This document shows positions 6,846 through 41,585 of a stretch of 64,000 nucleotides of DNA, piece after piece; within the stretch, counting starts at the first letter, position 1, and each line of letters begins with the position of its first letter. The translations under genes were made by a program, and so were the position numbers. The stretch lies in the IMG/VR virus record IMGVR_UViG_3300012000_000005, positions 1 to 64,000 of that record; one strand, given 5' to 3'. This stretch comes from a virus. The notes beneath the pieces were generated by a model that was given only the letters and a program-made list of their open reading frames with translations, searched no databases and was not told the DNA's origin.

Positions 6846-9521
6846 ATTATATTTCTGCGATTTTTCGCAGCACTATTCCTAGCAACATTTCTATTTTTAC
6901 TTGGTCAATCAACTGCGCATGCTGATGAACCTGCTACTGACCAGCAGGTCGTTTCCCCTGCCCCAAGCCCAGCTCCTGTAGATGGCGCTACCGTAACTAC
7001 TTCTTCTGGAGCCTTTCCACAACCAACGTCAACTCCTCAATCAACTGGTGAGAGTTCTTCAAGCTCTTCTTCAACTGGTTCAACTCCACAATCGTCTTCA
7101 ACTTCAGATACCTCATCGCCATCGCCCAGCCAATCGCCCATGCAATCGGCAGAGCCAGTATCCACGCCAACAAATAATCCTGAAACAATTACAGTTACCT
7201 CCGTACAGAATAAGATTGACACTGCAACTGCTACAGTCTCATCAACAAATATACCAACAACAGTCGCCTCTGACACTGCTGTTGTAACCGCTGTGGCACA
7301 AGCTACAGCGGCAATTCAAGATGCACAGACTTCTCTAAGTAACGCAACTCCTTTAGTGCAAGCAGCCGAAAGTGCTACAGCACTTATAGCACCTGCTGCA
7401 GCGGCTGTGGAAACCGCTACCACCACAGCTGCTGCCGCAGCTAATACTGTTACAACTCAAACTGCAGTTGTACAAGCTGCAACTGAAACTGTTGCTGCTA
7501 GACAAGAAGATGTAAATGTTGCAACTTCTGCAGTTACTACACAACAAGCAGTAGTAACGGAGGCCGTTATTACTAAGGCTGCGGCTGATGCTACTGTTGC
7601 TGCTAATACTCAACCAGGTCTTGATGTAAAAGTTACTCAGAACATTGGTTATAACAATGCTCCACCTGTAGAGGTAGGAACTACTACCTACACTGGAACT
7701 GCTGCTCAGATTAACTACAATTATGGTTTGGGTGGTCCCCCAAATACGTACCCAGAAGACTTTCAAATTAAATTCTCAGGACAGATTACGTCTAATACAA
7801 CTGGCAATATCCAGTTCTATGCTCCTGCAGATGACGGCGTAAAACTTTATCTAGATAATCAACTAGTTATTAATGACTGGTATGACAAAGGTGGCGGTGG
7901 TTCTATATCTGCTCCAGTAGCTTTTACAGCTAATACCCCTAAAGCTATTGTTCTTCATTTTTATGAGAACGGCGGAGGAGCAAACGTATCTTTGCGCTGG
8001 AATAGAGGTGCTGGTTGGGAAGTGGTTCCAGCTACAGCCTTGAGTCGTAGCAGCGCAACCCCTGAACAGCTAGCTGCAGCTCAAGCGGCTGCTACCGCAT
8101 TAAATACAGCTAATATAAATTTAAATAGTGCTACAGCAGCACAGTCAGTAGCAGAGACAGCACTTGCAGCAGCTCAGACCACACTAACAACAGAGACTCA
8201 AACATTGTCTAACCTCCAGGCTGAGAAAACTACTGCTGATGCTGCTGTTGTGTCAACTACTGCTGTTCTTACGCAGGTTACAAATGATGCGGCAACCGCT
8301 ACTTCCGCAGCTAATGCGGCTTTAAATACTGCTAATACTCTTGCTGATATTGCTGTTAATAAAGCAAACGCTATCGCTGTTCAGGTGTCCAGTACGAGCT
8401 CTCGTATTGAAGCGGAGGCTCAGGCTGCTGCGGCTGCTCAGGCTGCTGCGGCTGCTGCTGCGCAAGCTGCTGCTCAACAAGATGCTTCTTCTTCAACGCC
8501 AACTGTGCAACCAAATCCAAGTACTCCAACGTCTCCTTCTGACGGTGGGCCAACCACTCCTCCTCAGACAAATCCTCAAAACCCATCTACTGACCCTCTT
8601 CCTCCAACTGATACTGAACCTCAGCCCGATTCTCCATCTCAACCTGAAGGTCAGGAACAATCTCAAGAGCCTTCCGAAGATGGGGCTCAAAACCAAGAAT
8701 CCAATCAGGAATCTGACCAGAATCCTGAATCTCCTGACGAGCCAGAATCAACTGATGATACGCCTGAACAAGATGAGAATAACACATCTGATGATGGTAC
8801 TGATAGTTCCCAAGACTCATCTGAAGAACCTACAGACTCAGAAGAAGAACAGCAAACCACAGACCCAGAGTCACCAGAAACAGACCCCGAACAAAGCGGC
8901 GAAACTGACGAGTCTCAGAGCGAGAGTAATACTGAAGAATCAGAACAGCCACAGTCAGAAGAACAAGAGCAAGATAATCCGTTGGAAGAAACATCTTCTG
9001 ATAATACACCAGAAGAGGTAATAAGTGAAGCACTGGCTGATGGCAAACTTACTGAAGAGGAAAAAGCTGCCGTAGTAGAGGCTTTAGTTTCTAATTTAGA
9101 ACCTGGGGAAGCTGTTAGCGCTGAGGCTCTGAAGGAAGCTGGATTAACCTATGAGGACCTACCTCCTCAAACTCCAGTCAACGTTCGTACTGATGAGAAC
9201 GGTAATCCCGTTATAATTGAAGCAGAGGTTGCTGCGGCGCTAGTCTTATTAGAGAACCCCGCAGAACTTTTAGGCGCAATATTCGATGACCCAGGTCAGG
9301 TCCTTTTAGCACTCGGTTCTATCGGTGCTGATATGTCTCCAGAAGAACGAGAAGAAGCAACCAAAATGGTGGTTGCAACTGTCGTAGCAGCTGGAGCGGC
9401 TCTTAACGCAATCGGTGCAGCAGCTGGTGGCTCATCCGCACCAAGTGGTGGTGGAAGCAGTAACTCTGGAGGGGGAGGCCCTTCTGGAGAGAGTAAGGCC
9501 GTTAGGAGACGTAAGCCATGA
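6846..9521 (+). CDS. Secreted PA14-domain protein with non-ATG start
   Basis: The frame opens after a TAA at 6843 and has no ATG, GTG or TTG before 7140. Codons from 6846 nevertheless encode a clear signal peptide (FLRFFAALFLATFLFLLG then AHA cleavage). GGGG at 6834-6837 sits 8 nt before an ATT at 6846, so ATT is the likely start (891 aa). Residues about 256-402 form a PA14 domain (FSGQITSNTTGNIQFYAPAD, DDGVKLYLDNQLVINDW), normally a carbohydrate-binding beta-barrel. Ala-rich heptad segments flank it. A Ser/Glu/Asp/Pro linker (about 545-720) and an Ala/Gly-rich tail follow. It is probably exported or displayed on the infected cell, or is a virion adhesin. The next membrane gene overlaps its stop. 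Confidence 0.75.
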   Translation: MIFLRFFAALFLATFLFLLGQSTAHADEPATDQQVVSPAPSPAPVDGATVTTSSGAFPQPTSTPQSTGESSSSSSSTGSTPQSSSTSDTSSPSPSQSPMQSAEPVSTPTNNPETITVTSVQNKIDTATATVSSTNIPTTVASDTAVVTAVAQATAAIQDAQTSLSNATPLVQAAESATALIAPAAAAVETATTTAAAAANTVTTQTAVVQAATETVAARQEDVNVATSAVTTQQAVVTEAVITKAAADATVAANTQPGLDVKVTQNIGYNNAPPVEVGTTTYTGTAAQINYNYGLGGPPNTYPEDFQIKFSGQITSNTTGNIQFYAPADDGVKLYLDNQLVINDWYDKGGGGSISAPVAFTANTPKAIVLHFYENGGGANVSLRWNRGAGWEVVPATALSRSSATPEQLAAAQAAATALNTANINLNSATAAQSVAETALAAAQTTLTTETQTLSNLQAEKTTADAAVVSTTAVLTQVTNDAATATSAANAALNTANTLADIAVNKANAIAVQVSSTSSRIEAEAQAAAAAQAAAAAAAQAAAQQDASSSTPTVQPNPSTPTSPSDGGPTTPPQTNPQNPSTDPLPPTDTEPQPDSPSQPEGQEQSQEPSEDGAQNQESNQESDQNPESPDEPESTDDTPEQDENNTSDDGTDSSQDSSEEPTDSEEEQQTTDPESPETDPEQSGETDESQSESNTEESEQPQSEEQEQDNPLEETSSDNTPEEVISEALADGKLTEEEKAAVVEALVSNLEPGEAVSAEALKEAGLTYEDLPPQTPVNVRTDENGNPVIIEAEVAAALVLLENPAELLGAIFDDPGQVLLALGSIGADMSPEEREEATKMVVATVVAAGAALNAIGAAAGGSSAPSGGGSSNSGGGGPSGESKAVRRRKP

Positions 9522-10893: not shown

Positions 10894-11682
10894 ATGGCAG
10901 CATCATATCCAGGTTCGGTACGAGTATTTGATACAAAGTTTAATATCACCGACACTGTAGACGCTTCGCACCCTAACTCTTTACAAGAAGAAGTAGTTGC
11001 TATGCAGTCTATTATTGGTACAAACCCTCATGTTTCTACTGCTGCTAACCCTACAACCGCTTTTGTCGCTAGTTCCTTTACATACGGAAGCCTTTCTGCA
11101 CGTATTGCTAACATTGAAAACGGTGTTGTAGCCGATTCACACACTCAATATCTACGTAAAACTGCAGATGGTTTTACTAGTAATAGAGTTGACACTGGCA
11201 ACCAATCAAATGTTGGAGTTGTTGTACGAGGAACTCTAAATCAGTCTGCAAACCTCCAAGAATGGCAAAATAACATTGGAGTTGTTCAAGCAGCCGTTAC
11301 TCCAACTGGTTTATTTACTGGAACGGTAAATGCAGCCAATATTGTTGGTAGCGTAACCGCAATTCCTCAAGATGCAACAATTGAACAAAAATCTTCTAAT
11401 TTTTCATTAGTATTATCTGACAAAAACAAAGTATTTTGGTGTGTTAACACTGGAGCAACTTTAACTGTAACTATTCCCCTAAATGCTAGCCAAGCTTTTC
11501 CAACTGGCTCTCAAATGACGTTTATTCGTGGACAAAACCAAAATGTAACGTTTGTTGGAGAATCTGGCACGGTTGTATTAGGTGCAACTCCTGGTCCAAA
11601 CCTAAGAACGCAGTGGTCAGCAGCCACTCTTCTAAAGCTTGCTGAGAATACCTGGACTCTACTTGGCGATTTGAGCGCCTAA
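10894..11682 (+). CDS. Tail/fibre-type virion protein, 262 aa
   Basis: The N-terminus (FNITDTVDASHPNSLQEEVV followed by AMQSIIGTNPH) is a motif seen at the head of many minor tail and fibre proteins of actinophages. A central coiled region (LRKTADGFTSN) leads to a C-terminal beta-rich domain (TLTVTIPLNASQAFPTGSQM) similar to end domains of fibre proteins. It is most likely a virion appendage protein. Its stop overlaps the start of the Hint protein (TAATG), so the two are co-expressed and may assemble together. Confidence 0.65.
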   Translation: MAASYPGSVRVFDTKFNITDTVDASHPNSLQEEVVAMQSIIGTNPHVSTAANPTTAFVASSFTYGSLSARIANIENGVVADSHTQYLRKTADGFTSNRVDTGNQSNVGVVVRGTLNQSANLQEWQNNIGVVQAAVTPTGLFTGTVNAANIVGSVTAIPQDATIEQKSSNFSLVLSDKNKVFWCVNTGATLTVTIPLNASQAFPTGSQMTFIRGQNQNVTFVGESGTVVLGATPGPNLRTQWSAATLLKLAENTWTLLGDLSA

Positions 11683-13481
11683 TGTTAGTTAGAGTCGGTC
11701 CAGTTGACTCCCAGAAAAAGGTACCGCCTGGTTTAGCAACGCTAACCTCAGCAACTGATACTGGGTCTAATAGAAACTTTGATGATGGTTCATGTAACTT
11801 AACATGGACTGCGCCTACATTTGACGGAAAAACACCGCTTGTAGGCTATGACATTGTTGCTACTCCAGCTGACGGCGGCGCAGATGTTGTTACACAGGTT
11901 GGGCTAACAACAACTGGAAATATTACTGGTCTTCGTTCTGGTATTGAATATACTTACAAAGTTAGGGCTAGAAACCAAAGCAGTACTGGTTCTAACTCTT
12001 CTGGCAGAGGACCAATTAGAGCTACTACAAAGCCTAATATTCCTACAAACGTTTCAGCTGCTAATTTAAATACTGGAAGCACCGCATCAGTTTCATGGTC
12101 CGCCCCAGCTAACGGCGGTTCAACAATTACTCAATATACTGTAAAGATTGTTGGAACTAATACAACCCTAACAACTTCTAGCACTTCTCTTACTTTTACT
12201 GGATTAACTAACGGCAATAGTTATAGCTTTGTTGTTACTGCTACAAACGCAAACGGAACTAGTGCTGAATCAAACCCATCTGGTGTTATTGGTATCACTC
12301 AACCTGCTCCAGCACCAGCACCAGCTCCACCTTCTGGTGGTGGTGGGTGCACAAGTTGTCCACAAGACAGCGGAACTAGCTATTGTTCTGGAGCAAATTT
12401 AGTAATTAACCGAATAGACCCTTGTTGTGGAACAACACTATCGCCAAGAGTTGTTACAGTTAACGGCTGCGCTGCTCCAACTCCAACTGCTCCACCAGTA
12501 ACATGTTGCCAAGATGACGACGCAGGATTTTGCAGTGGCGGTACTTGGTTTCAAAATAGATTTGACCCTTGTGGTGGAGCTTATTGTGCCCCAAGAAATA
12601 CTGGAAGTCCTTGCGTCTCAACTGGGCCATCTGACGCAAACACTACTTATTGTGCATCAACTGCTTCGTTTGTTCCAACTTCGGGATATCCTGGAAACTG
12701 CCCAGGAGCTAGTACAGTAGTCGTAACACCAACTGCTCCTCCAGTAGTCATAACACCAACTGCTGCTCCAGTAACGCCAACTGCTGCTCCTGGACCTGAT
12801 GCTTTTGGTTGCCCACCTGGCACTGGTTTTGCTGGCGTTGGTCGAGGATGTATCCCTACTGGTCCTGTGACAGTAACACCAACTGCTGCTCCAGTAGTTG
12901 TAACCCCAACTCCACCATCTCAACCATTTGCACCTTGGCCAGAGTATTTCTACACGGGCGTTGGCGGTCCACCAGCAGCACCAGTACCAAGATACCCCTA
13001 CTACTGCTTATCTATTGACAGCATGATTCCTACTCCAAATGGAGATAAGAGATTAGCTGACTTAGTAATTGGTGACCAGATTATTTCTGCACGTTTTGAG
13101 GAAATTGACCCAGATGACCCAAATGCAGACTTAATTGTGGATACTTGGTCCTCAGACAGCTTTACCTATCGTGAGCTAGATATAACAACAATTGTTAATA
13201 TCAGAGAGTGGGAAGAGACTGGTCGTTATACTATTAACAATAGAATCCACGTAACAGGCACTCACCCATTTATTGCAAAAGAAGCCGCGGATGGGCGCTA
13301 TTACTATACTAGAGCTGCTCAGCTTGTAGAGGGTGATTTTTTATTTGATGGGGATTTAGAGACTTGGGTTCCCGTTACAAGTATTTCATATGCTCCAAAC
13401 ATTAGATTTAAAGTTCGTACTCTTAGCACTGAGCCCTATGATATGTTCTTCGCAGAGGGTATACTAGTTCACAACAAGTAA
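11682..13481 (+). CDS. FN3, Cys-rich, Pro/Thr-rich protein with C-terminal Hint domain
   Basis: The domains in order are two fibronectin type III repeats (about 17-116 and 117-207), a Pro-Ala hinge, and about three Cys-rich repeats (about 222-335). A Pro/Thr-rich linker repeats TPTAAPVV (about 345-412). A Hint (hedgehog/intein) domain runs from Cys442 to the end. The Hint domain shows CLSIDSMIPTPNGDKRLADL at its start, THPF (block B) and a terminal GILVHNK (blocks F/G). There is no homing endonuclease insert and no C-extein beyond one Lys. It therefore looks like a hedgehog/BIL-type autoprocessing domain that could release or attach the N-terminal part through a thioester at Cys442, not a splicing intein. 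A surface fibre or adhesin role is inferred from FN3 and context. Confidence 0.8.
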   Translation: MLVRVGPVDSQKKVPPGLATLTSATDTGSNRNFDDGSCNLTWTAPTFDGKTPLVGYDIVATPADGGADVVTQVGLTTTGNITGLRSGIEYTYKVRARNQSSTGSNSSGRGPIRATTKPNIPTNVSAANLNTGSTASVSWSAPANGGSTITQYTVKIVGTNTTLTTSSTSLTFTGLTNGNSYSFVVTATNANGTSAESNPSGVIGITQPAPAPAPAPPSGGGGCTSCPQDSGTSYCSGANLVINRIDPCCGTTLSPRVVTVNGCAAPTPTAPPVTCCQDDDAGFCSGGTWFQNRFDPCGGAYCAPRNTGSPCVSTGPSDANTTYCASTASFVPTSGYPGNCPGASTVVVTPTAPPVVITPTAAPVTPTAAPGPDAFGCPPGTGFAGVGRGCIPTGPVTVTPTAAPVVVTPTPPSQPFAPWPEYFYTGVGGPPAAPVPRYPYYCLSIDSMIPTPNGDKRLADLVIGDQIISARFEEIDPDDPNADLIVDTWSSDSFTYRELDITTIVNIREWEETGRYTINNRIHVTGTHPFIAKEAADGRYYYTRAAQLVEGDFLFDGDLETWVPVTSISYAPNIRFKVRTLSTEPYDMFFAEGILVHNK

Positions 13482-13491
13482 AGGACCTAAT

Positions 13492-14109
13492 ATGGAATCA
13501 AAAATCGTTGCACCAGGGATAGTCTTATTTGAGAACATAGTCCCTGACTATAAAGAGCTAGTACAGGAAATAGAAAAAGTAGGAAATTCACCATCTAAAG
13601 TAATTAGGTGGAAACGAGCTACTGTGGGTTCTCCTACCGCTGGAACTCAAATACACGAGGCTAGAACCAACTCCTCTATTCATCTTCAAGCTGAGTGGGC
13701 TACGGTTGAAAACCCAGATTTAAATGCTGGAGGACAGCTAGCGGTAAAGTTAATTAATAACATTCAAGATGCCTACAACAAATATAAAGAATATTATCCA
13801 TCAGTAAACTCTGGAGACCTTCCAGTAAGCCCTATTATTTTAAGGTATCAAACTGGTCAAAAATACGATATGCATGCAGATGCTGGCGGAGGAAATAACC
13901 GAGTATTATCTTTAGTTTGGTATGTAAATAACGAGTATGAAGGTGGAGAAATTGACTTCCCATACTTTGGATATAAGTTAAAGCCACCAGCTAATTCTAT
14001 GATTTTCTTTCCTTCTAACTACATTTATGCGCATATAGCTCACCCAGTAACTGACGGAACAAAGTATGCCGTGGTTATGTGGATATTGGAAGACACAACT
14101 CATTTATGA
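13492..14109 (+). CDS. 2OG-Fe(II) oxygenase, prolyl-hydroxylase-like
   Basis: The 205-residue protein has the P4H-type double-stranded beta-helix motifs: MHAD (His128, Asp130), LVWYVNNEYEGGEIDFP, and FPSNYIYAHIAHPVTDGTKY giving a distal His (H181 or H184) and Lys191 for 2-oxoglutarate. The family hydroxylates peptidyl proline or similar residues using Fe(II), O2 and 2OG. It sits 11 nt after the Hint/Pro-Thr-rich gene and is coupled to a second oxygenase, so a virion protein may be its substrate. DNA or small-molecule hydroxylation cannot be excluded. Confidence 0.8.
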   Translation: MESKIVAPGIVLFENIVPDYKELVQEIEKVGNSPSKVIRWKRATVGSPTAGTQIHEARTNSSIHLQAEWATVENPDLNAGGQLAVKLINNIQDAYNKYKEYYPSVNSGDLPVSPIILRYQTGQKYDMHADAGGGNNRVLSLVWYVNNEYEGGEIDFPYFGYKLKPPANSMIFFPSNYIYAHIAHPVTDGTKYAVVMWILEDTTHL

Positions 14110-14699
14110 AATATTTTTCTGATGACGCAGATATGGGTACCCGCCCAATTGTAAAAGACCCAATTATAGTAAGTGACGTTCTAGAGCCAACTAGATTTGC
14201 AGAGGTTGTAGAAACGGTTACTAATTACCCATTGGATGAGCTTACTTACGATAGAAGTTTTGGCCGTTTTATGTTAAAGCCTGGGTCAAGCACCTTGCCA
14301 GACGACCTATTAAAGGAATGTCAGCAAAAAGCAAGAGATATATTTGACAGCCAAACTCTTCTACCTACATATGCCTGCTACGTAAAATACAAGGGTGCTA
14401 GAGCTAACTTATTGCGCCACAAAGACAGCAATGCTTGCACATATACAATTGACCTTTGTTTAACACAGATGGTTGAGTGGCCGCTATACGTTGAGGATAA
14501 AGAGTACATATTGCAGCCAAATCAAGCTCTATGTTTTTATGGAGAGGACCAAACTCATTGGCGCGGCCCATATCCAGAAAAAGACACAAATATAATAGAC
14601 ATGATATTTCTACATTATGCGGAGCCAGACCACTGGTATCACACCAAAGGAGCGGAGTACTACAAAACAATCATGGCTAGACAAAACGCTGTGATGTAA
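14106..14699 (+). CDS. Second 2OG-Fe(II) oxygenase-like protein
   Basis: The 197-residue product (start ATG 14106, ATGA overlap with the first oxygenase; an earlier in-frame start is unlikely) has RHKDSNA (His105-x-Asp107), a strand EYILQPNQALCFYG and a distal THWRGPYP (His151, Arg153). This is the expected iron-facial triad and 2OG-binding Arg. It differs from the first oxygenase and is not a recent duplicate. It could act on a different residue of the same target. Confidence 0.7.
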   Translation: MKYFSDDADMGTRPIVKDPIIVSDVLEPTRFAEVVETVTNYPLDELTYDRSFGRFMLKPGSSTLPDDLLKECQQKARDIFDSQTLLPTYACYVKYKGARANLLRHKDSNACTYTIDLCLTQMVEWPLYVEDKEYILQPNQALCFYGEDQTHWRGPYPEKDTNIIDMIFLHYAEPDHWYHTKGAEYYKTIMARQNAVM

Positions 14700-15427
14700 T
14701 GCCAGTAATTAAGTTCTATCCTACTGACGAGGAAGTAGGGGGTTTTGCCCCTCCACCAGTCCCCGTTCGCACAATGATGCCAGAATGGTTTAGAAAGCTT
14801 CCGCCTTACCTAACTCAAAAGCCAGAAGTTGTAAAGGCAATTGATGATTCCCCAAACGGTGGTCATTTTCTAAATGTAACTGGTAAAAAGTGCATGTCTA
14901 TGATTGATACGTTTACCACTGGGTATTACTTCTTATGTCCCGTAGATATATTTATAGACACGACAAATCCGAAAGACATTCAATTAAAATGGAGAAATCC
15001 TCGTTACGAGTTTATATTAACTCACAACCCAGAGCAGGTTGGAGATTACCCTGTAGATGATACCCTTTGTGAAGATATCTTAAGGTGGGTTCCATTTTGG
15101 TGTGCGGTAACTCCAGAAGGTTACAGTACGCTTATTATTACGCCCGCACATAGACCAGACCTGCCTTTTATAACAATGACTGGAATTATAGACACAGATA
15201 GCATGCCTTCTGCTGGCGCTTTACCTTTTCACATAAAGAAAAACTATAAAGGAATTATTAAGCGAGGAACCCCTATTGCTCAGGCTATACCCTTTAAAAG
15301 AGAAGAGTGGAGCTCTGAAATCATAGAGGAAAGAAGTCAAGAAGTTCGTGATAGGCTAAATCTGATAAATTCCTCCTTTTCAGGGATGTATCAAGAAAAT
15401 ATGTGGGAGAAGAAGACATTTAAATGA
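14699..15427 (+). CDS. DUF6065-like protein
   Basis: The 242-residue protein shows MPEWFRKLPPY, KKCMSMIDTFTTGYYFLCP, LIITPAHRPDLPF and GTPIAQAIPFKREEW. I recognise this layout as the DUF6065 family, which occurs in phages and bacteria near 2OG oxygenases and sugar enzymes. The function is unproven and a cupin-like beta-fold is plausible. It starts in a TAATG overlap with the second oxygenase and is part of the same operon. Confidence 0.65.
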   Translation: MPVIKFYPTDEEVGGFAPPPVPVRTMMPEWFRKLPPYLTQKPEVVKAIDDSPNGGHFLNVTGKKCMSMIDTFTTGYYFLCPVDIFIDTTNPKDIQLKWRNPRYEFILTHNPEQVGDYPVDDTLCEDILRWVPFWCAVTPEGYSTLIITPAHRPDLPFITMTGIIDTDSMPSAGALPFHIKKNYKGIIKRGTPIAQAIPFKREEWSSEIIEERSQEVRDRLNLINSSFSGMYQENMWEKKTFK

Positions 15428-15693
15428 GCAAAATTTCAGATAGATTTAGAAACAGTGATAAGGGTAAAAACCTTCCCAAACCAGTTAGGCCGTGGGATTT
15501 ACTAAAAACCTCTGAGCCTAGAGCAACTGATGACGTTGCTTCAGACAGGTTGTCTATCTGCAGGGCTTGTCCAGAGTTAATACCCCTTACTGGTCAATGT
15601 AAAAAATGTGGCTGCGTTATGCATTTAAAAGTAAAACTAGCAAAAGCCTACTGTCCACTTCATAAATGGGCCCCAACCCACGATACGGAATAA
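15424..15693 (+). CDS. DUF6171-like zinc protein
   Basis: The 89-residue protein has RLSICRACPELIPLTGQCKK, CGCVMHLKVKLAKAYCPLHKW. These six Cys and a His in a compact C-terminal half look like the small zinc-binding family (DUF6171) found beside glycosyltransferases in phages. ATGA couples it to the DUF6065 gene, and the transferase gene begins 2 nt after its stop. It may be an accessory or substrate-docking protein; this is inference. Confidence 0.65.
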   Translation: MSKISDRFRNSDKGKNLPKPVRPWDLLKTSEPRATDDVASDRLSICRACPELIPLTGQCKKCGCVMHLKVKLAKAYCPLHKWAPTHDTE

Positions 15694-15695
15694 AA

Positions 15696-16718
15696 ATGAC
15701 CCCAAAACTGCTGGTAAGCATCGTAAACTACAAAGACCCAGAGTTTTTTGAAACTGTGAGGAGTCTTTGGGACACGTGCGACTTTAAAGACTCTATTGTG
15801 TTTTCTTTGGTAGATGAAGACGAGGCGCCTAAGGATTTTTCCTTTATTCCAGAAAAAAATTTAATTTACAGATATTTTCCTTCTGATAAGTACTACGGCG
15901 GCCTGTGCTGGGCAAGGAACTTAGCTACGCAAGTAGATTTTGATTACGAATACTTTGTTCAGTTTGACTCCCACAGTAGGGCTCGTAATGGGTGGGATAG
16001 AAAAGGGTACGAAAACTATAAATATATAGAAGCGGCATTTCCAGAAGAAAAAGTATTAATTTGCTATGCCCCTCCTTCCTATTTTATAGATAAAGAGGGG
16101 AACGTAAATTTAGAATTAGAAACCAACAAGTTTGGACAAAGAGCTACTTGGTATAAAGACTTAGTTCCAGGATATGAATTTCCTGGGTATAGAGAATTAA
16201 CTGGAACAGAGGTTGCGAAAACATATTGGACCACTTGTATGTACATATTTGCTCCATATGCGTGGATAGATGAAGTTGGAGTAGATGGGGTTGGAGCTTT
16301 TAGTACTGAAGAGTTCAATCAATCTATAAGAACATTTTCAAAAGGTTGGTCCATATATGCAATTGGGGCCAGAGACGTTTTTCATCAACACCACGACTCT
16401 TGGGGACGAAACTATACAAAGGCAGCTTTACGGCCTTGGGGTGATGAAAGAGAAAACGCTTATTGGGACCATGTACTAAGTGCTACTAACCACCTTGGCA
16501 GACTTCTAGCTGGGTTAGAAGACGTGCCCATAGAAAAAGTAAAAGAGTTTTTTAAAGTGACTGAAATAGATGAGCGTTTCTTAGGTATGTCAGATGCTTA
16601 CTACGACATGGTTAATGCACGAGGTAAGGCTCTGGGAATGCCACCAAGACCAAACAGAAACGGTATGCCCCCTCTACCCTCTCCAGACGCACCAGTATTT
16701 AAGCCTGACAGACCGTAA
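15696..16718 (+). CDS. GT60-type GlcNAc-transferase-like glycosyltransferase
   Basis: The 340-residue protein begins KLLVSIVNYKDPEF, then GGLCWARN, EYFVQFDSHSRARNGWD and ICYAPPSYF, and later EEFNQSIRTFSKGWSIYAIG and FHQHHDSWGR. These are the successive motifs of the PF11397/GT60 family, with DSH (91-93) in the place of the DxD metal motif. Characterised members in Dictyostelium transfer GlcNAc from UDP-GlcNAc to hydroxyproline or Ser/Thr of proteins. Placement two genes after two 2OG oxygenases suggests sequential hydroxylation and glycosylation. Other GT-A activities are possible. The start at ATG 15696 avoids overlap with the zinc protein. Confidence 0.75.
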   Translation: MTPKLLVSIVNYKDPEFFETVRSLWDTCDFKDSIVFSLVDEDEAPKDFSFIPEKNLIYRYFPSDKYYGGLCWARNLATQVDFDYEYFVQFDSHSRARNGWDRKGYENYKYIEAAFPEEKVLICYAPPSYFIDKEGNVNLELETNKFGQRATWYKDLVPGYEFPGYRELTGTEVAKTYWTTCMYIFAPYAWIDEVGVDGVGAFSTEEFNQSIRTFSKGWSIYAIGARDVFHQHHDSWGRNYTKAALRPWGDERENAYWDHVLSATNHLGRLLAGLEDVPIEKVKEFFKVTEIDERFLGMSDAYYDMVNARGKALGMPPRPNRNGMPPLPSPDAPVFKPDRP

Positions 16719-16789: not shown

Positions 16790-17761
16790 ATGGCAACAGA
16801 TTCTTCAGGTCAGCAGGCCGTTGATTTTGTATGGGGTAACTTCCCTATGCAACCCAACGATGACCGTGCAGCGACCGTAACTAACACAGGTGGGTCTACT
16901 GGCGACTATGGCTGGGCACAGACCACTTTGGTTGCAAGTGCTCGCCTTGATGCAGCATTAGACAACCACGCAAATGCAGAAGCGGGTTGGTCAGGTTATC
17001 CAACATTTATCGCAGGAGCAGGTAACTATATGGTTACTGAAGCTTCAGGTAACGGAACAACCGTAACCTACAAGTCCCAAAACAATCTTGCTGCAGGAGA
17101 TACAGTAAACATTACTGGTCTTACAGCATCTGGTTACAACCTTTCAAACGCAACTGTAGCTAGCGCAAACGCTCTTCAGTTCACAGTAACAAACGCAGCA
17201 AACGGTGGCCTTATTACAGGTCAGCGCGGTAAGGTTGAGTCAACAACTGCTCTAACAGCAGCTGATGGCGTAGGTCTTGGAAACATTATCGTTCCAAATG
17301 TTCTTGGTACAACCACAGCATTTGCTGTTGATGCTCTTCGTGATGCAGGCTACGAATTGGCTAATATCACCACAGCATCGGCTGCTGCTAACGCACGCAC
17401 CAACATCACTCGCTTCAATGCCACAAGCGCTACAGTTGCAGTTATTTACGCTACAAGCGCAAACACCAACTACCCAACAGGCACCAAGGTCACACTTGTT
17501 GCAGGAACTCCAGCTGGCGTAAGCCCAGTCAACCTTCCAGCATACGCACTTGGTACTTGGACAGTTACAGGTTCTGCAGGCGCAGGTCAGATTACTGTTT
17601 CAGGTTCTGGCTTTACAGTTGCAGACACAACTGGCATCAATGCAACTGGAACACTCGGCGGAGCAAATGGCACCATCAGAACCCAGAGCACTGCAGCAAA
17701 CGCAGCAGGCATTGCTACAACCGCAACAATTACCATCACCCCTTGGGCAAACGCTTCTTAA
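16790..17761 (+). CDS. Beta-rich virion protein with PASTA-like segment
   Basis: The 323-residue protein begins DSSGQQAVDFVWGNFPMQPN, has a beta module (about 78-155; TVTYKSQNNLAAGDTVNITG) and then a PASTA-like stretch IVPNVLGTTTAFAVDALRDA (about 164-200). Thr/Ala-rich strands follow. PASTA domains bind peptidoglycan or beta-lactams in bacterial kinases and PBPs, so cell-wall contact is plausible. Codon choice (AAC, ATC, GCA, ACC) resembles the capsid gene and suggests high expression. It is a single-gene unit between promoter P1 and a strong terminator. Confidence 0.6.
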   Translation: MATDSSGQQAVDFVWGNFPMQPNDDRAATVTNTGGSTGDYGWAQTTLVASARLDAALDNHANAEAGWSGYPTFIAGAGNYMVTEASGNGTTVTYKSQNNLAAGDTVNITGLTASGYNLSNATVASANALQFTVTNAANGGLITGQRGKVESTTALTAADGVGLGNIIVPNVLGTTTAFAVDALRDAGYELANITTASAAANARTNITRFNATSATVAVIYATSANTNYPTGTKVTLVAGTPAGVSPVNLPAYALGTWTVTGSAGAGQITVSGSGFTVADTTGINATGTLGGANGTIRTQSTAANAAGIATTATITITPWANAS

Positions 17762-29159: not shown

Positions 29160-31637
29160 GTGGCTCCAGAAGAACTTTATGTAGTAGGTCCAGATAACAG
29201 CGCTTGGTACCCAACCGCTACTGGTCCGACTTCTCCTGCTCCTACAGGCGGTACTGGTCCTACTGGACCAACTGGCCCTACTGGTAGAACAGGTGCAACA
29301 GGACCAGCAGGTGCAACGGGTGCTGCTGGCGTTTCTGTAACAGGTCCTCAAGGTCCAACTGGCGCGCCAGGACCAACTGGTCCACAAGGTATCCAAGGTA
29401 ACGCTGGTCCAACTGGTGCAACTGGTCCTTCTGGTATTTCTGGTCTTCAAGGACCTACTGGTCCCACTGGACCATCTGGACAAGTAATCACTATTCGTGG
29501 TGAGTACCCAACACTTAATGATTTACAAACAGCACATCCAACTGGTAATCCAGGCGATGCTTATCTTCTTGCTAATGGCAATTTAATTATTTGGAACCCT
29601 ACGTTAAACGGGCCATCCACTGGTGGTTGGCAAAACGTAGGTAATCTAGAAGGACCAACTGGTCCTGCTGGAGTAACAGGTCCTACTGGTCCACGCGGAC
29701 AGCAAGGTGTACAAGGTCCTGTTGGTAATACTGGTACAACAGGTGATACTGGTCCTACTGGTCCGCAAGGCCCAACAGGTCCACAAGGTGCACGTGGTGA
29801 GACTGGTCCTATCGGTCCTACTGGTGTTGCTGGTCTTGTTGGACCAACAGGTGCTACTGGTGCACAAGGTCTTTCTATTACTGGCCCTACTGGTCCTCAA
29901 GGTAAGTCATTAACACTTCTCGGAAGTTTTGCTGATTTACAAGCACTAAACCTTGCGTATCCTCCAATAACACTTAAAGCTGGCGACACAGCTTTTATTG
30001 GAACTACATTCTATTACTGGAATCCATCCCCTGGTATTTGGGTTGCTACTTCCAATTTGATTGGACCTACAGGTCCTACAGGTGCCGTCGGTCCTACAGG
30101 TGCCGCATCAAACGTAACTGGTCCTACTGGTTTAACTGGAGCTACTGGTGCACAGGGTCCTATTGGTCCAACAGGTCCTCAAGGAAATATTGGTGCCACT
30201 GGTCCAACTGGAGCAGCATCAACGGTTCCTGGTCCTACTGGTCCTACTGGAACTACGCGCCCAGTAACAAGCGTTACATTTACAAGTCGAGGTGTTTGGA
30301 GTTCCTTAGGAACTTACGTATTAAATGATGGAGTTACTTACAACTCTGAAACATGGGTATTAACAAACGTTTCACAATTTACTGTTGGTACCGCACCTAA
30401 CGCTGATGGAAGCGGATGGGCACTTTATGTAAAAGGTGCTACAGGTGCTACGGGTCCTCAAGGTTCTGCTGGTCTTCCAGGTGCAATTGGTCCTACAGGT
30501 GCTCAAGGTCCACAAGGTATTCAAGGCCCTACTGGTCCACAGGGTACAGCAGGTACTCCAGGTTCTGTTGGTACCGCGGGTGCTACAGGTCCTACTGGTC
30601 CTCAAGGTGCTGGAATCTTTATTCTTGGTTCCTACAACTCATTAAGCGATTTACAAACAGCGCATCCAATTGGTGCAACTGGCGACGGTTATCTTGTTAA
30701 CGGTGTTCTATTTGTATGGGCTGGTTCTAACTGGGCAAGTGCTGGTGCAATTCAAGGACCAACAGGTGCTCAAGGTATTCAAGGTATCCAAGGTGCAACT
30801 GGTCCTAAAGGAGATACTGGTCCACAAGGACCTCAAGGTATTCAAGGAATTCAAGGACCAGTTGGTCCTACTGGCTTAACTGGTGCGACTGGTGCGCAAG
30901 GAACTCAAGGTCTTCAAGGTCTTCAAGGTGTAACAGGTCCTACAGGTCCGCAAGGTCCTCAAGGTGTTACTGGTCCAACAGGTATTCAGGGACGCGGTCT
31001 TGCAATTCTTGGTTCGTTTGATACGTTCCAACAATTAACTGCAACCATAACCAATCCTGCAACTGGTGACGGTTATTTAATTCAAGGTCAGTTATATATT
31101 TGGCAAGGTACTGCGTGGATTAACGCAGGCTTTGTTCAAGGCCCAACAGGTCCTACTGGACAAACAGGTATTCAAGGTCCTACAGGTGCAACTGGTGCGG
31201 CTTCAACTGTTCCAGGTCCTACTGGTGCTACAGGCCCAACTCCATTTACCGTTATTGGTACTTGGCAAAGTGGAATTTCATATCAACCTGGTCAAGCCGT
31301 TTTCTATGACACCCCAACATTAAAAGGAACGTACCTACGCAGAAACAACAATTCTACTGCTGGCATTACTCCTTTAGAAGACCCAGCTGGTTGGCAAGTA
31401 ATTGTTGCTGCAACTATTGGACCAACTGGAGCTACAGGTCCACAAGGTTTAACTGGTCTACAAGGTCCAACTGGTTCTCAAGGTATTCAGGGTGTAACAG
31501 GACCAACAGGAAGTCAGGGTTTACTAGGTCCAACAGGCCCTACAGGCACTACACTACTTAATGTAGATGGTGGCGGCCCTGCAACAAATTATGGCGGAGT
31601 TATAACCATCAACGGAGGAGACGTGAGCGGTAACTAA
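29160..31637 (+). CDS. Collagen-like fibre protein
   Basis: The 825-residue protein (GTG start) consists of long Gly-X-Y runs dominated by GPT, GAT, GPQ and GIQ triplets, interrupted by globular modules. Four copies of a roughly 50-residue module share GxGDxYLxxGxLxxW (near 29490-29650, 29908-30065, 30613-30755 and 30998-31145). Two CBM5/12-like stretches (near 30257-30440 and 31240-31400; [17 protein letters not shown]) also occur. It should form trimeric rods with carbohydrate-binding knobs. Most Pro are in X and many Thr in Y positions, making Thr glycosylation or Pro hydroxylation plausible. A fibre or adhesin on the head or tail is the likely role. Confidence 0.85.
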
Positions 31638-36105: not shown

Positions 36106-39100
36106 ATGGCTATTAGTTCAAGCAAAGAATTTATCGTATTTCCTAACGATAATTCTGGTCGCGTTTACGTTAAAGAGCAGGCCTTTACAGCCAGTGGTAC
36201 CTGGACAGTTCCTGCTGGTGTAACAAGCGCTCAAATCATCCTCGTTGGTGGAGGTGGCGGCGGTGGAGGCGGAAGCCAAAACGTCGCGGGCGGCGGTGGC
36301 GGTGGCGGACAGGTAATTGTTCGTAACCTCGACGTTAATCCACTACAGACCTACACTGTAACAATTGGTGCAGGTGGTCAGGGCGGTCTTGGCGCTCAGA
36401 CTGGTGCAGCTGATGAAACAAGCACACTTCCAGGCGGTAACGGTACTCCTACCTCATTTGGAAACATTACAGTTGCAAACCTTTTGACAAATACAGACTT
36501 TGATTACAACATTCTTGGCTGGGAACCAGACATTACTTTCCGTTCTGCCACTGGTATTTCTGGTCAGTCTGGTATCACCGTATATCCTAATGCTGCTGGT
36601 ATTTCAGTAGGTCAGATTGTATCTGGTGGTAACATTGCTGGTGGTGCGGTTGTTCAGTCTATTACTGGAAACGTAGTAGCGCTATCTCTTGCTAACACAG
36701 GTACAGTGAGCGGTATTATTCGTTTTGACAACGATACTGTTCGTCTACGTCCATCTAACGTATTCTTTAATAACATCTCAGGTGGCGGTGACACAACTAA
36801 CCCACAGACATCAAATACCCCAGGTTCACCATATTTCCAGAACCTATCTAACAACATTTTGATGCCTGAACTATCACAGCTTGAAGAAGCAGCCCTTATC
36901 ACGAACAATAACATTCGTCAGTATGGAACTGCGCTTTCTACCTTTACCATTACCAACGCTGGTGTTCCTACCAAGTTGGCAGAAATGGCTGGCGGATACG
37001 CTAAGTTAGCAACGGGTGTATTAACTGCAACATCAATTACTTTGGATAGCACACTAAATGTTTATCCAGGTATGTCTATTTCAGGAAATGGTTTCCAAGC
37101 TGGAACTACTGTTCTTAGCGTAGATAGCAGCACAGCGATTACAATTTCTGCTGCACTTACATCGCCATTAACTGCCAGTGCTTGTACTGTTTCTTACACA
37201 GGCGCTACTGGTGCTAACGCCCTTATTTGCGGTACTAGCTCCTCAACAGCGTCGGGTAACCCAACATGGGTTCAGTTCTCTAACATGAACTCAACCAGCA
37301 CTTCAAACGGTCTTCAGACATCTGCAGGTTTCCAGGGAGTTCCATATATCCCAGGCACTACCTACACAATGTCTGCTTATGTTTCTACAAACGTAAATAT
37401 CAGCACCTCAACACCAATCCTATTCCAGATTCGTTCAGCGGGAGCTTCTCGTAACGCTATCTCCAGCACTTCATATCAGGGCGGCTCTAACTCAGCAACC
37501 ACTGACTCTATTGATGCTGGTACCGCTAACGGTTTCTTTGTGCGTCAAGCAACTCCAGCAGCCTTGAGTGGGTACGGTGGTTCCTTCTCAACTACAGCTA
37601 ACGCAGGCAACAACTCCACAACAATTACTGTTGCTGATGCAAGCGGTATTTTGCAGAGCATGACCATCACAGGTTCAGGTATTCAGTCAAACACTACAGT
37701 ATCTTCTATTGTGGGAAACACTGTTACTATAAGCCTTCCAACAAACGCTGTTATTACTAACGGTGCTGTTTCATTCAACTCTGGAAACTCTCAGGTACTT
37801 GGTTCAAACGTTACTCCTAGCCAAACACCATGGCGCCGTATCTCAGCAACCTTTACCACACCAACAATTGCAACCACACTTGCTAACAGCATTTATGCGT
37901 TTGGTTCAACACCTCAGTTTATTCACCCAGTAATCATGCTTCAGCAGGGTTCTGTAAACTACTGGTTTGATAACATCCAGCTTGAAGTTGGTAATACAAC
38001 TACAACTTGGCGTCCACCTGTATACCGTGAGGCACAAGCACTTGTTGCTATGTCTAACAACGCACAGGGCGGAAACCTTGAGGCTTCACACCGATTTGTA
38101 AGGTCAGTAGCTGGTACTCAGTACTCAGGTTCTGCATTCGTTGTTGATATGGGTACAGCTAACCAGTACCGTCCAGTGCGTGGATTTATCGAGTTTTTTG
38201 ATAGAGACTACAACTCACTGCTTCGTACAGAAGGCAGCAACGTATTCTTGCCAATCTCTGGTGTTTCAGCGCTAACTCAGCAAATGCCTAACGTTACTTA
38301 TCCAGTACGTGTAGGTGTGACAGCTACAGCTCCTGTTAACACTGCTTGGATGAAGTTTGGTGTCTTTAAGCTTAACGGCACTCAATCAGCTTCAGCTAAC
38401 GCAATTGAACTTGCAATCATGGCTCCACAGCTTGAGGCTGCAGCAGTCCCAACTATTTACAAAGAAGCTGACGGCGTTAACTTTGTATACGCTGGACAAG
38501 CTGGTGTCACACCAATTGTTACAGCAGCAACCATCTCTGCAGAAGGTGGCGGAGGCGGCGGAACATATAACGCTAACTCACTAGTTTGGCAGTACGGTCT
38601 AGAAGGCGGCAACAACGGCGGTCACGCTGCACGTAACGCCCACACTTCTATGACTCTTGCTGGCGGTGGCGCTGGTTCAGGTTCTGCAGGTGGCAACGCG
38701 CTTTCATACATGCCTGGATTCTCAGGCGGTAACACCACTGGTGGTTCTAACATCACTACAGGTACAGCTCAGCAAACATGGCCACTTCGTGGAAACTACG
38801 GTGGTGGCGCATTCTGGCAGACTGGTACAGGCTCAGCTAACATCCCAGGTTGGGGTGGAGACGGTGGTCTTGGACAGTTAATTAACAGTATTAACAGCGG
38901 TTCGCCTATTGGCCTCGCACTTGGTGGCGGTGGCGGTGGCGCTGGCTGGAGCTCTAACTCACAATTCCAAACTTCTCCAGGTCGCGGAAACGGTGGCGGT
39001 GGTAAGGGTGCAGGTACTTGGATTCTTAACCAGTCTGCTGCAACTGCTGATTACTACGCACGTGGCCTTGATGGTATTGCTAACACTGGCGGCGGAGGCG

Positions 39101-39756
39101 GCGGTGGAGGTTCAAACTGGTCCAACGACCCAGCTACCTTCATTAACCACGCAGCTGCAAACGTTGCTGTTAACTATGAAGCGCTATCTGCTGAATACTT
39201 CAAGTGGACACCTATTTACAACGCAACAATCGTTATCTCAGGACAGGCTGGTTTCTACGGTTCAAACGTTCTACGTGTGACTATTCAAGATGTTGGTAAT
39301 GCAAAAATTACTACCACATGGCAGTCATTCCCAATTCTTCCACGCATCCCACTATTCTTCTCAGGTGTGGCTGCACGTCTAACAACTGCTCCTGGTGGTG
39401 TGACATCTTCACAGTTCCCAGGTCTTGCTAAGCGCGTACGTCCAACAGTTCGTTGGAAGAATGACCGTAACATTGTTCTTCGTGAAGACCGTCCAGATTT
39501 CAACATTGTATTTGCTGGTACTAACGCCATCACTTACCTTGGCGCAGCAGGTGCTACATCTGGTTCATGGTTAACTCTTCAGGCTCCAGCTGACGCATCA
39601 TTCTTTGATGTATGCTGGGAATTCCTATACTTTGATGCTGGCGACATCGTTGATGTTGACCTTGGTGGATGCCAGTATCAGGGCTATAAGTCAGACGGCG
39701 GTAACGGTGCTGACGGTTATGCTCTAATCCGCTGGTTTGACAAAGCAGTTCTATAA
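36106..39756 (+). CDS. Giant glycine-rich tail fibre/adhesin, 1216 aa
   Basis: An N-terminal glycine-rich domain (about 30-110, GGGGGGGGGSQNVAGG) is followed by three copies of a beta module with the pattern G-M/Q-x-[IV]-S-G-x-[GN] (near 36560-36724, 37033-37200 and 37611-37785). CBM-like jelly-roll segments ending in QLEVGNTTTTWRPPVYREAQ follow, then further Gly-rich blocks in the C-terminal 450 residues. This build is that of receptor-binding fibres with polyglycine II cores. Codon use is strongly biased, suggesting high expression. A small chaperone-like gene follows. Confidence 0.75.
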   Translation: MAISSSKEFIVFPNDNSGRVYVKEQAFTASGTWTVPAGVTSAQIILVGGGGGGGGGSQNVAGGGGGGGQVIVRNLDVNPLQTYTVTIGAGGQGGLGAQTGAADETSTLPGGNGTPTSFGNITVANLLTNTDFDYNILGWEPDITFRSATGISGQSGITVYPNAAGISVGQIVSGGNIAGGAVVQSITGNVVALSLANTGTVSGIIRFDNDTVRLRPSNVFFNNISGGGDTTNPQTSNTPGSPYFQNLSNNILMPELSQLEEAALITNNNIRQYGTALSTFTITNAGVPTKLAEMAGGYAKLATGVLTATSITLDSTLNVYPGMSISGNGFQAGTTVLSVDSSTAITISAALTSPLTASACTVSYTGATGANALICGTSSSTASGNPTWVQFSNMNSTSTSNGLQTSAGFQGVPYIPGTTYTMSAYVSTNVNISTSTPILFQIRSAGASRNAISSTSYQGGSNSATTDSIDAGTANGFFVRQATPAALSGYGGSFSTTANAGNNSTTITVADASGILQSMTITGSGIQSNTTVSSIVGNTVTISLPTNAVITNGAVSFNSGNSQVLGSNVTPSQTPWRRISATFTTPTIATTLANSIYAFGSTPQFIHPVIMLQQGSVNYWFDNIQLEVGNTTTTWRPPVYREAQALVAMSNNAQGGNLEASHRFVRSVAGTQYSGSAFVVDMGTANQYRPVRGFIEFFDRDYNSLLRTEGSNVFLPISGVSALTQQMPNVTYPVRVGVTATAPVNTAWMKFGVFKLNGTQSASANAIELAIMAPQLEAAAVPTIYKEADGVNFVYAGQAGVTPIVTAATISAEGGGGGGTYNANSLVWQYGLEGGNNGGHAARNAHTSMTLAGGGAGSGSAGGNALSYMPGFSGGNTTGGSNITTGTAQQTWPLRGNYGGGAFWQTGTGSANIPGWGGDGGLGQLINSINSGSPIGLALGGGGGGAGWSSNSQFQTSPGRGNGGGGKGAGTWILNQSAATADYYARGLDGIANTGGGGGGGGSNWSNDPATFINHAAANVAVNYEALSAEYFKWTPIYNATIVISGQAGFYGSNVLRVTIQDVGNAKITTTWQSFPILPRIPLFFSGVAARLTTAPGGVTSSQFPGLAKRVRPTVRWKNDRNIVLREDRPDFNIVFAGTNAITYLGAAGATSGSWLTLQAPADASFFDVCWEFLYFDAGDIVDVDLGGCQYQGYKSDGGNGADGYALIRWFDKAVL

Positions 39757-40526: not shown

Positions 40527-41585
40527 ATGAAAATAGCCGTATACACCATCGCATTAAATGAAGAACAGTTTGTAGAACGCTGGTATAAATCAGCTAAGGA
40601 TGCTGACTATCTCATGATTGCTGACACAGGCTCTGTTGATGAGACTGTAAGTAAGGCTGAAGCCCTAGGAATTGTGTGCCACAAAATTAGCATACGTCCG
40701 TGGCGCTTTGATGACGCCCGCAATGCTGCCCTTGCTTTATTACCTGACAACATTGACTATTGCATATCTTTAGATATGGACGAGTTGCTGGCACCAGGTT
40801 GGAGAAAGGAAATGGAAAAAGTTCCAAAAGGCTCTACACGTATACGCTACGACTACACCTGGAACTTTAACGACGACGGCACCCCAGGCTTAACATTTGG
40901 CGGAGATAAGATTCATGCACGTCACGGTTATCGTTGGGTTCATCCTGTTCATGAGTGCTTGTATACAGACCGTATAGAAGAAAAAGAATACTGGTCTAAG
41001 TTAGGACTGTGGCACAAAGCTGATAACTCTAAATCCCGTGGGCAGTACCTACCTCTTCTTAAACTGTCAATAGAAGAAGACCCAGATAATGACCGTAACG
41101 CCTACTACTACGCTCGAGAGTTATTCTTTCACGGACAGTACGAAGAAGCTAAGGTTCAGTTTGAACGTCACCTTTCCCTGCCAAAAGCTATATGGAAAGC
41201 TGAACGCGCATCGTCTATGCGCTACATAGCCAAGTGTTCTACAGACGAGGCAGAAAAAATTAAATGGTGGAAATTAGCAACTCAAGAAGCACCTGGTAGA
41301 AGAGAGGGGTATGTTGAGTGGGCTAACTACCACTACGACAAAGGTAACTTTACAGAGTGTCTACATCTGTGCAAAAAAGCACTTAATATTAAAGAACGAG
41401 ATATGGACTATTTAAATGAAGCATTTGCTTGGGGCCCTTTGCCTTACGACTTAGCCGCTGTATGTTCCTTTTGGCTTGGTGAAAAAGAAAAAGCGGTTGA
41501 ATATGCGGAGAAGGCGGTAGAGCTAGACCCGACAAATGAGAGATTAAAGAGTAACCTAGAACTTTGTAGGAAGGAGATTGCCTAA
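40527..41585 (+). CDS. GT2-family glycosyltransferase with TPR tail
   Basis: The 352-residue protein starts MKIAVYTIALNEEQFVERWY and has ADTGSVDET and LDMDELLAPGW (DxD at 83-85), the GT-A fold signature of family 2. The C-terminal half carries TPR-like helical pairs (YYYARELFFHGQYEEAKVQF; EKAVEYAEKAVELDPTNERL). Such GT2-TPR proteins glycosylate proteins or surface polymers. It follows the fibre genes, so a fibre is a candidate acceptor. It is a second glycosyltransferase, unrelated to the one at 15696. Confidence 0.85.
   Translation: MKIAVYTIALNEEQFVERWYKSAKDADYLMIADTGSVDETVSKAEALGIVCHKISIRPWRFDDARNAALALLPDNIDYCISLDMDELLAPGWRKEMEKVPKGSTRIRYDYTWNFNDDGTPGLTFGGDKIHARHGYRWVHPVHECLYTDRIEEKEYWSKLGLWHKADNSKSRGQYLPLLKLSIEEDPDNDRNAYYYARELFFHGQYEEAKVQFERHLSLPKAIWKAERASSMRYIAKCSTDEAEKIKWWKLATQEAPGRREGYVEWANYHYDKGNFTECLHLCKKALNIKERDMDYLNEAFAWGPLPYDLAAVCSFWLGEKEKAVEYAEKAVELDPTNERLKSNLELCRKEIA

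Follow-up and report, generated by a model that had tools for sequence, protein, structure and literature searches.

In the 64-kb window analyzed here (64,000 nucleotides, part of the 95,461-base IMG/VR virus record IMGVR_UViG_3300012000_000005), five overlapping open reading frames (ORFs) on one strand lie behind a tail gene, separated from it by a gap of 11 bp, and encode two 2-oxoglutarate (2OG)-Fe(II) oxygenases, a DUF6065-like protein, a small DUF6171 protein and a PF11397 (GT60-type) glycosyltransferase. The successive overlaps are 31, 1, 4 and 28 nt. Both this operon and its position directly behind a protein with a repetitive Pro/Thr linker had been described in an original prediction, made without database searches, that took the genes for a hydroxyproline (Hyp) glycosylation cassette, and both hold at the following coordinates.

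11682..13481, + strand: tail protein with two FN3 domains, a Cys-containing middle part, the linker and a Hint-like end; likeliest substrate (PF00041, phrog_6977)
about 12672..12930, + strand: Pro/Thr-rich repeat linker (VTPTAPPVVITPTAAPVTPTAAP...VTVTPTAAPVVVTPTPPSQPFAP), proposed hydroxylation and glycosylation site (covariation with the enzymes in relatives)
13005..13478, + strand: Hint/intein-like domain (Cys442 at its start, TxxH, His-Asn-Lys end)
13492..14109, + strand: prolyl-4-hydroxylase (P4H)-like 2OG-Fe(II) oxygenase (PF13640; PDB profile matches)
14079..14699, + strand: OX2, the second 2OG-Fe(II) oxygenase, likely start 14106 (phrog_2954, alignment, structure model, Foldseek)
14699..15427, + strand: DUF6065-like protein with a predicted dUTPase-like fold (phrog_7084, structure model, Foldseek)
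15424..15693, + strand: DUF6171 Cys4-type small protein, island marker (PF19668; invariant Cys in alignment)
15666..16718, + strand: PF11397 (GT60-type) glycosyltransferase, likely start 15696 (Pfam; DxH motif D101-S-H103)

This freshwater phage encodes a contractile tail (sheath, tube, baseplate wedge). It belongs to a large freshwater myophage group, the nearest isolates of which are Streptomyces phages; with the terminases of two of these, BRock and GiJojo, that of the window phage shares 55% identity. In viral contig scans, three more lineages had the five genes in identical order after this tail protein, their transferases being 63-67% identical to that of the window, so that a hydroxylase and a GT60 enzyme stand in one unit in the window and in three other lineages. 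Since four lineages in all share the gene order (transferases 63-100% identical to the window's), the operon arrangement is not a matter of chance.

The product of 13492-14109 matches PF13640 (1e-15, Pfam) and retains the HxD...H triad and a basic 2OG ligand (H128, D130, H181 and K191). When a profile of 22 relatives was compared with PDB, the Bacillus P4H 3itq/5hv0 came first (47.8 bits), followed by the viral P4H 5c5t and then PHD2, with PKHD-type hydroxylases between and the algal P4H 2jig lower; we take 5c5t to be the chlorella-virus P4H and 2jig the algal cell-wall P4H. Prolyl hydroxylases hence rank top among the PDB profile matches, and by sequence the protein is a prolyl-4-hydroxylase-like 2OG-Fe(II) oxygenase. 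For OX2 there was no Pfam family above threshold and no solved structure found by sequence search; the protein belongs to phrog_2954, which carries the PHROG label "ferrochelatase." An alignment of 22 relatives shows an invariant H114xD116...H160 and agrees better with a start at 14106 than with the mechanical start at 14079. The structure model (pLDDT 90.8) retrieved PHD2, a Dictyostelium prolyl hydroxylase and a Pseudomonas P4H in a Foldseek search of PDB (E about 1e-6, TM 0.47-0.57), and this predicted 2OG oxygenase fold rules out a ferrochelatase. OX2 is thus modeled as a prolyl-hydroxylase-like 2OG oxygenase. The prediction of two 2OG-Fe(II) oxygenases, one of them P4H-like, is borne out by PF13640 for the first and by structure for OX2, and both are closest to prolyl hydroxylases. 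Cyanophage "ferrochelatase" proteins (phrog_2954, phrog_3531) are likewise OX2-like 2OG oxygenases, and in a protein of Synechococcus phage S-T4 (L047 5371-6531) OX2-like and P4H-like domains are fused. Scans of genome contigs with the OX2 and DUF6171 profiles returned no cellular relatives of either.

The transferase scores 55.4 bits against PF11397 (curated cut-off 21, Pfam), covering only positions 111-273 of the 352 in the model, and all 22 diverse island transferases match the family (22/22, best 4e-52). D101, H103, W110, D111, E215 and E216 are invariant among these 22, and D101, H103, E215 and E216 are also found in the transferase of phage XacN1, which scores 261 bits. The DxH motif is presumably the metal motif. 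A start at 15696 agrees better with homologues than the mechanical start at 15666, and a sequence search found no solved structures. The predicted family membership is supported, and by sequence the enzyme belongs to the PF11397/GT60-type polypeptide N-acetylglucosamine (GlcNAc)-transferase family. GT60 enzymes act on the hydroxyproline of Skp1 in Dictyostelium and Toxoplasma (PMC6939170) and initiate mucin-type O-glycans in Dictyostelium and T. cruzi (PMC8724618). The acceptor can hence be Hyp or Thr.

The two remaining genes are less readily placed. Against DUF6065, the family named in the original prediction, the product of 14699-15427 scores 13.8 bits, under the Pfam cut-off of 26.6; the label keeps its backing from phrog_7084 (2e-40, PHROG) and from the 11 of 22 diverse relatives that match PF19541. 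Its model (pLDDT 82.5) led Foldseek to dUTPases (E 2e-4 to 1e-3), and a dUTPase-like fold is predicted. DUF6065 also occurs in haloviruses such as HF2. The DUF6171 protein, foreseen as a zinc protein, lies within PF19668 (28.4 bits, cut-off 27), and its Cys residues are invariant in the alignment.

The tail protein upstream has two FN3 domains (PF00041, 3e-26, Pfam) and belongs to phrog_6977, minor tail protein (PHROG). In an alignment of the four lineages its Hint part is nearly invariant and its linker hypervariable. The linker, which in the window repeats TPTAAP/TPTAPP, is rebuilt in each lineage yet Pro/Thr-rich throughout (TPTAAP, TPTATVTPTAT, PTPPQPTPP, TPTAPVTPTAP).

In related phages, the stretch between this tail gene and a downstream PASTA-like gene is an exchange site. 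Relatives were gathered with the terminase, the PASTA-like gene and DUF6171 as anchors; each anchor has several hundred relatives, and the best 80 in each scan were inspected. Island contents vary, with combinations of P4H, OX2, DUF6065, DUF6171, PF11397 transferases, other transferases and NAD-dependent sugar epimerases, as well as carbamoyltransferases in a few islands. One of the other transferases belongs to PF11051, and two have no Pfam family; the latter, GT16 and GT49, carry local cluster numbers rather than CAZy family names, and are called transferases by inference from their place beside epimerases. The stretch is hence a modular modification island, the enzymes of which are swapped between related phages.

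The type of linker repeat mostly changes together with the enzyme set. From 151 islands, with the upstream tail protein picked automatically, 71 non-redundant tails were retained. Tails were called TP-rich if their low-complexity sequence contained five or more TP dipeptides, a threshold not fixed beforehand; thresholds of ten TP, or of eight [ASTV]P, gave the same answer. TP-rich tails made up 27/45 of those with P4H or OX2 vs 3/26 of those with neither (p = 6e-5), and for [ASTV]P-rich tails the counts were 29/45 and 3/26 (p = 2e-5). For some tails a score of zero merely reflects a true tail located off the contig or further upstream, a bias that works against the association. OX2 carries the TP-repeat signal, with 20/26 TP-rich tails in its presence vs 10/45 in its absence (p = 1e-5). 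The association recurred in the hold-out islands, defined as those first seen after the idea was noted, which was before the DUF6171 scan (20/32 with an oxygenase vs 1/12 without, p = 0.002). Moreover, among nearest DUF6171 relatives differing in oxygenase, 18/23 informative pairs (18:5) ran in the expected direction (p = 0.01). Within a single transferase class, that of GT49 plus epimerase, linkers are TTTTT in islands without an oxygenase (L111, L112, L123) and (TP)n in those with one (L213, L235, L260, L275), or 4/4 vs 0/3 for (TP)n (p = 0.03). Repeats found mostly with either oxygenase are (TP)n, (VTP)n and (APV)n, and also (APVPAPIP)(VAPSP)n, while TTTTT, poly-Pro, SPPAAPPASPP, YYAAP and FFPP occur mostly without.

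We propose with moderate confidence that the cassette hydroxylates and sugar-coats the Pro/Thr-rich linker of the upstream tail protein. In the mechanism that we infer, including the catalytic activities, the substrate, the order of steps, the identity of the sugar and the function of the coat, the operon would be a late virion-protein modification cassette, in which OX2 and the P4H-like enzyme hydroxylate prolines (possibly threonines too) in the linker, and the PF11397 transferase then adds a sugar (by family, alpha-GlcNAc) to Hyp and/or Thr of that linker. The phage tail would thereby bear a sugar-coated stalk resembling mucins or arabinogalactan proteins, and in related phages the coat would vary as other transferases and sugar-making enzymes move into the island. 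A linker substrate would account for where the island lies, for the kinship of both oxygenases with prolyl hydroxylases and for the covariation, and the PHD/P4H-like fold of OX2 makes hydroxylation plus glycosylation of the tail linker the best reading.

Several observations weigh against this proposal. The window linker is modest, with 10 TP in the whole tail protein and 6 of them in the linker. Among the 71 tails, the P4H-like enzyme alone had no significant association with TP repeats (p = 0.33), nor had P4H in the absence of OX2 (7/19 TP-rich vs 3/26, p = 0.07), and P4H was therefore dropped as the enzyme tracking them. Neither oxygenase is present in 7/15 non-redundant GT60 islands. The DUF6171 tree gives only 4-6 independent pairs on supported branches, an underpowered comparison (p about 0.13), in which the OX2 pairs agree in direction (4 same, 0 opposite, 2 with no difference). 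Furthermore, because linker and enzyme genes adjoin, block hitch-hiking of the two is possible.

A possible, though less probable, alternative is that the transferase glycosylates linker Thr (or Ser) directly while the oxygenases act independently on neighboring Pro, with no Hyp-sugar bond; Pro hydroxylation might then affect conformation or protease resistance, or have another target. The GT60 islands without oxygenases fit this account, and some of them, L233 and L266, stand before Thr-only linkers such as TTTTTT. There is also a family precedent in mucin-type initiation, as in trypanosome mucins (PMC8724618), and Thr is abundant in nearly all linkers. As about half of the GT60 islands are without both oxygenases, Thr may be the acceptor, and the Hyp-sugar step, though possible, does not follow from the gene content. 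Conversely, Thr is scarce in the linkers of some islands with GT60 and DUF6065 (SPPAAPPASPP in L181, YYAAP in L107), so Thr would not be the sole acceptor either, and (TP)n prevails in GT60 islands with an oxygenase (7/8 vs 3/7, p = 0.12, too few for significance). The fixed pathway of P4H followed by GT60 that had been predicted is not borne out in that form, given the oxygenase-free GT60 islands and the tracking of TP repeats by OX2 rather than P4H. The broader idea, that a Pro/Thr-rich part of the tail is hydroxylated and glycosylated, survives, but the chemistry predicted for it was too specific.

It is unlikely that the enzymes modify GPT-rich collagen-like tail fibers rather than the linker protein. 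The same genome does encode such a fiber, which has 35 GPT among its 136 triplets and 64 triplets with Thr in Y, and collagen-like peptides are substrates of bacterial P4H (PMC8968730). In Synechococcus phage ACG-2014f (L049:2112-7588), of a different phage family, a P4H-like oxygenase and a different transferase, a group-1 glycosyltransferase, lie between collagen-repeat and tail-fiber genes. However, Thr in Y is nothing unusual in bacterial collagens (PMC8968730), the fibers lie 7 kb beyond the terminase and not beside the island, and in the phage group long collagen-like fibers are present in 3/3 phages with oxygenases and 6/10 without. Occurring with or without oxygenases, these fibers are not a dedicated substrate and were rejected as the main target. 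The suggestion that the phage modifies its own Pro/Thr-rich or collagen-like fibers is thus retained for the adjacent tail linker, through the covariation, and not for the collagen-like fibers.

It is improbable that the island modifies host surface polysaccharide, for receptor masking or superinfection exclusion, the link to the linker reflecting block inheritance. Its epimerases and transferases are of kinds used for surface glycans, and the tree test is underpowered, but such a scheme offers no obvious role for protein prolyl-hydroxylase-like enzymes, and the location is late structural. The DUF6171 tree requires at least 15 changes of repeat type and as many of oxygenase, and some 15 changes of each are too labile a pattern for a few founder events.

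Hypermodification of DNA or nucleotides, by 2OG hydroxylation and then glycosylation with the dUTPase-like DUF6065 protein, is very improbable and was rejected: its predicted fold, the known phage transferases that sugar DNA, and the PF11397 transferase of phage XacN1 that adjoins a carbamoyltransferase near DNA polymerase speak for it, but in the PDB comparisons the oxygenases are nearest to prolyl hydroxylases and not to the TET/JBP or AlkB families (the original prediction had named a grouping with DNA-modifying enzymes as grounds for refutation), the island is surrounded by tail genes and changes along with the repeats of the tail protein, and thymidylate-synthase family PF00303 is absent from the 95-kb contig, which may be incomplete (controls positive). 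A scan with PF12851 (TET/JBP) gave no match, its controls being equally silent.

Among the closest known systems is the Skp1 pathway of Dictyostelium and Toxoplasma (PhyA plus Gnt1/GT60), which likewise combines a prolyl-hydroxylase-like oxygenase with a PF11397/GT60-type transferase, as soluble enzymes of cytoplasmic type. In contrast to the single proline of Skp1, the phage has an operon, two oxygenases and a repeat linker; no downstream Skp1 glycosyltransferases were identified in the phage, and the GT60 enzymes of relatives often lack oxygenases, so that co-occurrence among the islands does not indicate a dependence of GT60 on a hydroxylase. Ala/Ser/Thr-Hyp dipeptide repeats are the arabinogalactan glycomodules of plants (PMC7769824). 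The phages resemble plant and algal Hyp-rich glycoproteins in linking non-contiguous Pro in AP, SP, TP and VP repeats with prolyl hydroxylases, and the P4H profile also matches the algal 2jig. They differ in that the protein belongs to a phage tail, there is no secretory pathway, and the transferases are not plant Hyp-galactosyltransferases: the scanned island transferases match PF11397, PF11051 or no family, and none is a Hyp glycosyltransferase of GT31/GT95 type. That prolyl hydroxylases and exchangeable transferases yield Hyp-linked glycoproteins here, building arabinogalactan- or Skp1-like Hyp-O-glycans on tail repeats, with repeats and enzymes co-evolving as matched cartridges, is a tentative extension of the linker proposal, and would bring hydroxyproline-linked glycosylation to bacteriophages.

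Other comparisons come from bacteria and phages. Bacillus BclA with BaP4H offers the bacterial P4H nearest in sequence and a glycosylated Pro/Thr-rich filament; there, however, the modified repeats are collagen triplets on spores, and the transferases differ. A bacterial P4H hydroxylates Pro in both X and Y positions (PMC8968730). In cyanophages, clusters of 2OG-Fe(II) oxygenases (phrog_61, phrog_2954/3531) contain both oxygenase types, fused in S-T4, and adjoin tail-fiber genes. Unlike the window, they have other transferase families, and no TP-repeat linker was seen in the three cyanophage oxygenase loci examined. As summarized in PMC12619734, actinobacteriophage transferases add sugars to virion proteins, namely to capsid and tail-tube C-termini (Freeman et al., 2023). 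These transferases too are phage-encoded, and Streptomyces phages are the nearest isolates of the window's group, but the sites named in that summary differ from the repeat linker and 2OG oxygenases of the window phage.

Both virion glycosylation and P4H-like proteins have been described in phages before; phage 2OG oxygenases that resemble prolyl hydroxylases were noted earlier, and a phage 2OG protein resembles EGLN3 (PMC12774648). The open-access literature searched holds no report of phage hydroxyproline glycosylation, in agreement with the earlier claim that it is undescribed. Several 2OG-Fe(II) oxygenases without an assigned purpose, often mislabeled as ferrochelatase or endonuclease, are found in many aquatic phages, and the matched change of repeats and enzymes gives these a concrete candidate substrate. 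Should the linker proposal be true, such enzymes would give flexible tail stalks hydroxyl groups and a sugar coat, a means for phages to vary the surface of the virion against host and environment, and the collected islands would amount to a natural library of hydroxylases and glycosyltransferases specific for particular repeats.

Three further features of the window bear on the island borders and the collagen-like fiber.

10894..11682, + strand: tail protein "tail262," upstream island border (phrog_8780 minor tail protein; neighbor kept in relatives)
16790..17761, + strand: PASTA-like tail-associated protein, variable, downstream island border (Pfam; comparison with relatives)
29160..31637, + strand: collagen-like tail fiber with 136 GXY triplets (triplet counts; weighed above as an alternative substrate)

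The PASTA-like protein is only 62-74% identical to its counterparts in L006 and L007, phages that are otherwise about 95% identical, which indicates that its gene is fast-evolving or recombining. A PA14-domain protein (7140-9521) has a Pro/Ser/Glu-rich low-complexity region that also varies among relatives. The island of L103 (2560-5015) encodes a GDP-mannose-dehydratase-like enzyme, an APS kinase and a sulfotransferase-looking ORF without a Pfam match, from which a sulfated virion glycan is possible.

For the Hint-like domain of the tail protein, PF14890 gives only 0.037 (Pfam) and the intein 6rpp a weak match (0.014). A crude Hint-signature scan matched 3/71 tails and was too strict, missing the window's own family. 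Hint/intein-like domains are also found at the extreme C-terminus of tail proteins in L110, L160, L198, L091, L063 and L059, with weak Pfam support, and such C-termini often end in His-Asn plus a few residues. The domains could self-cleave to leave a reactive linker end. A second glycosyltransferase (40527-41585, GT2-like with TPR, phrog_13126) is encoded shortly downstream of a Gly-rich tail-fiber gene region (36106-39756) and is perhaps a second virion-modifying enzyme.

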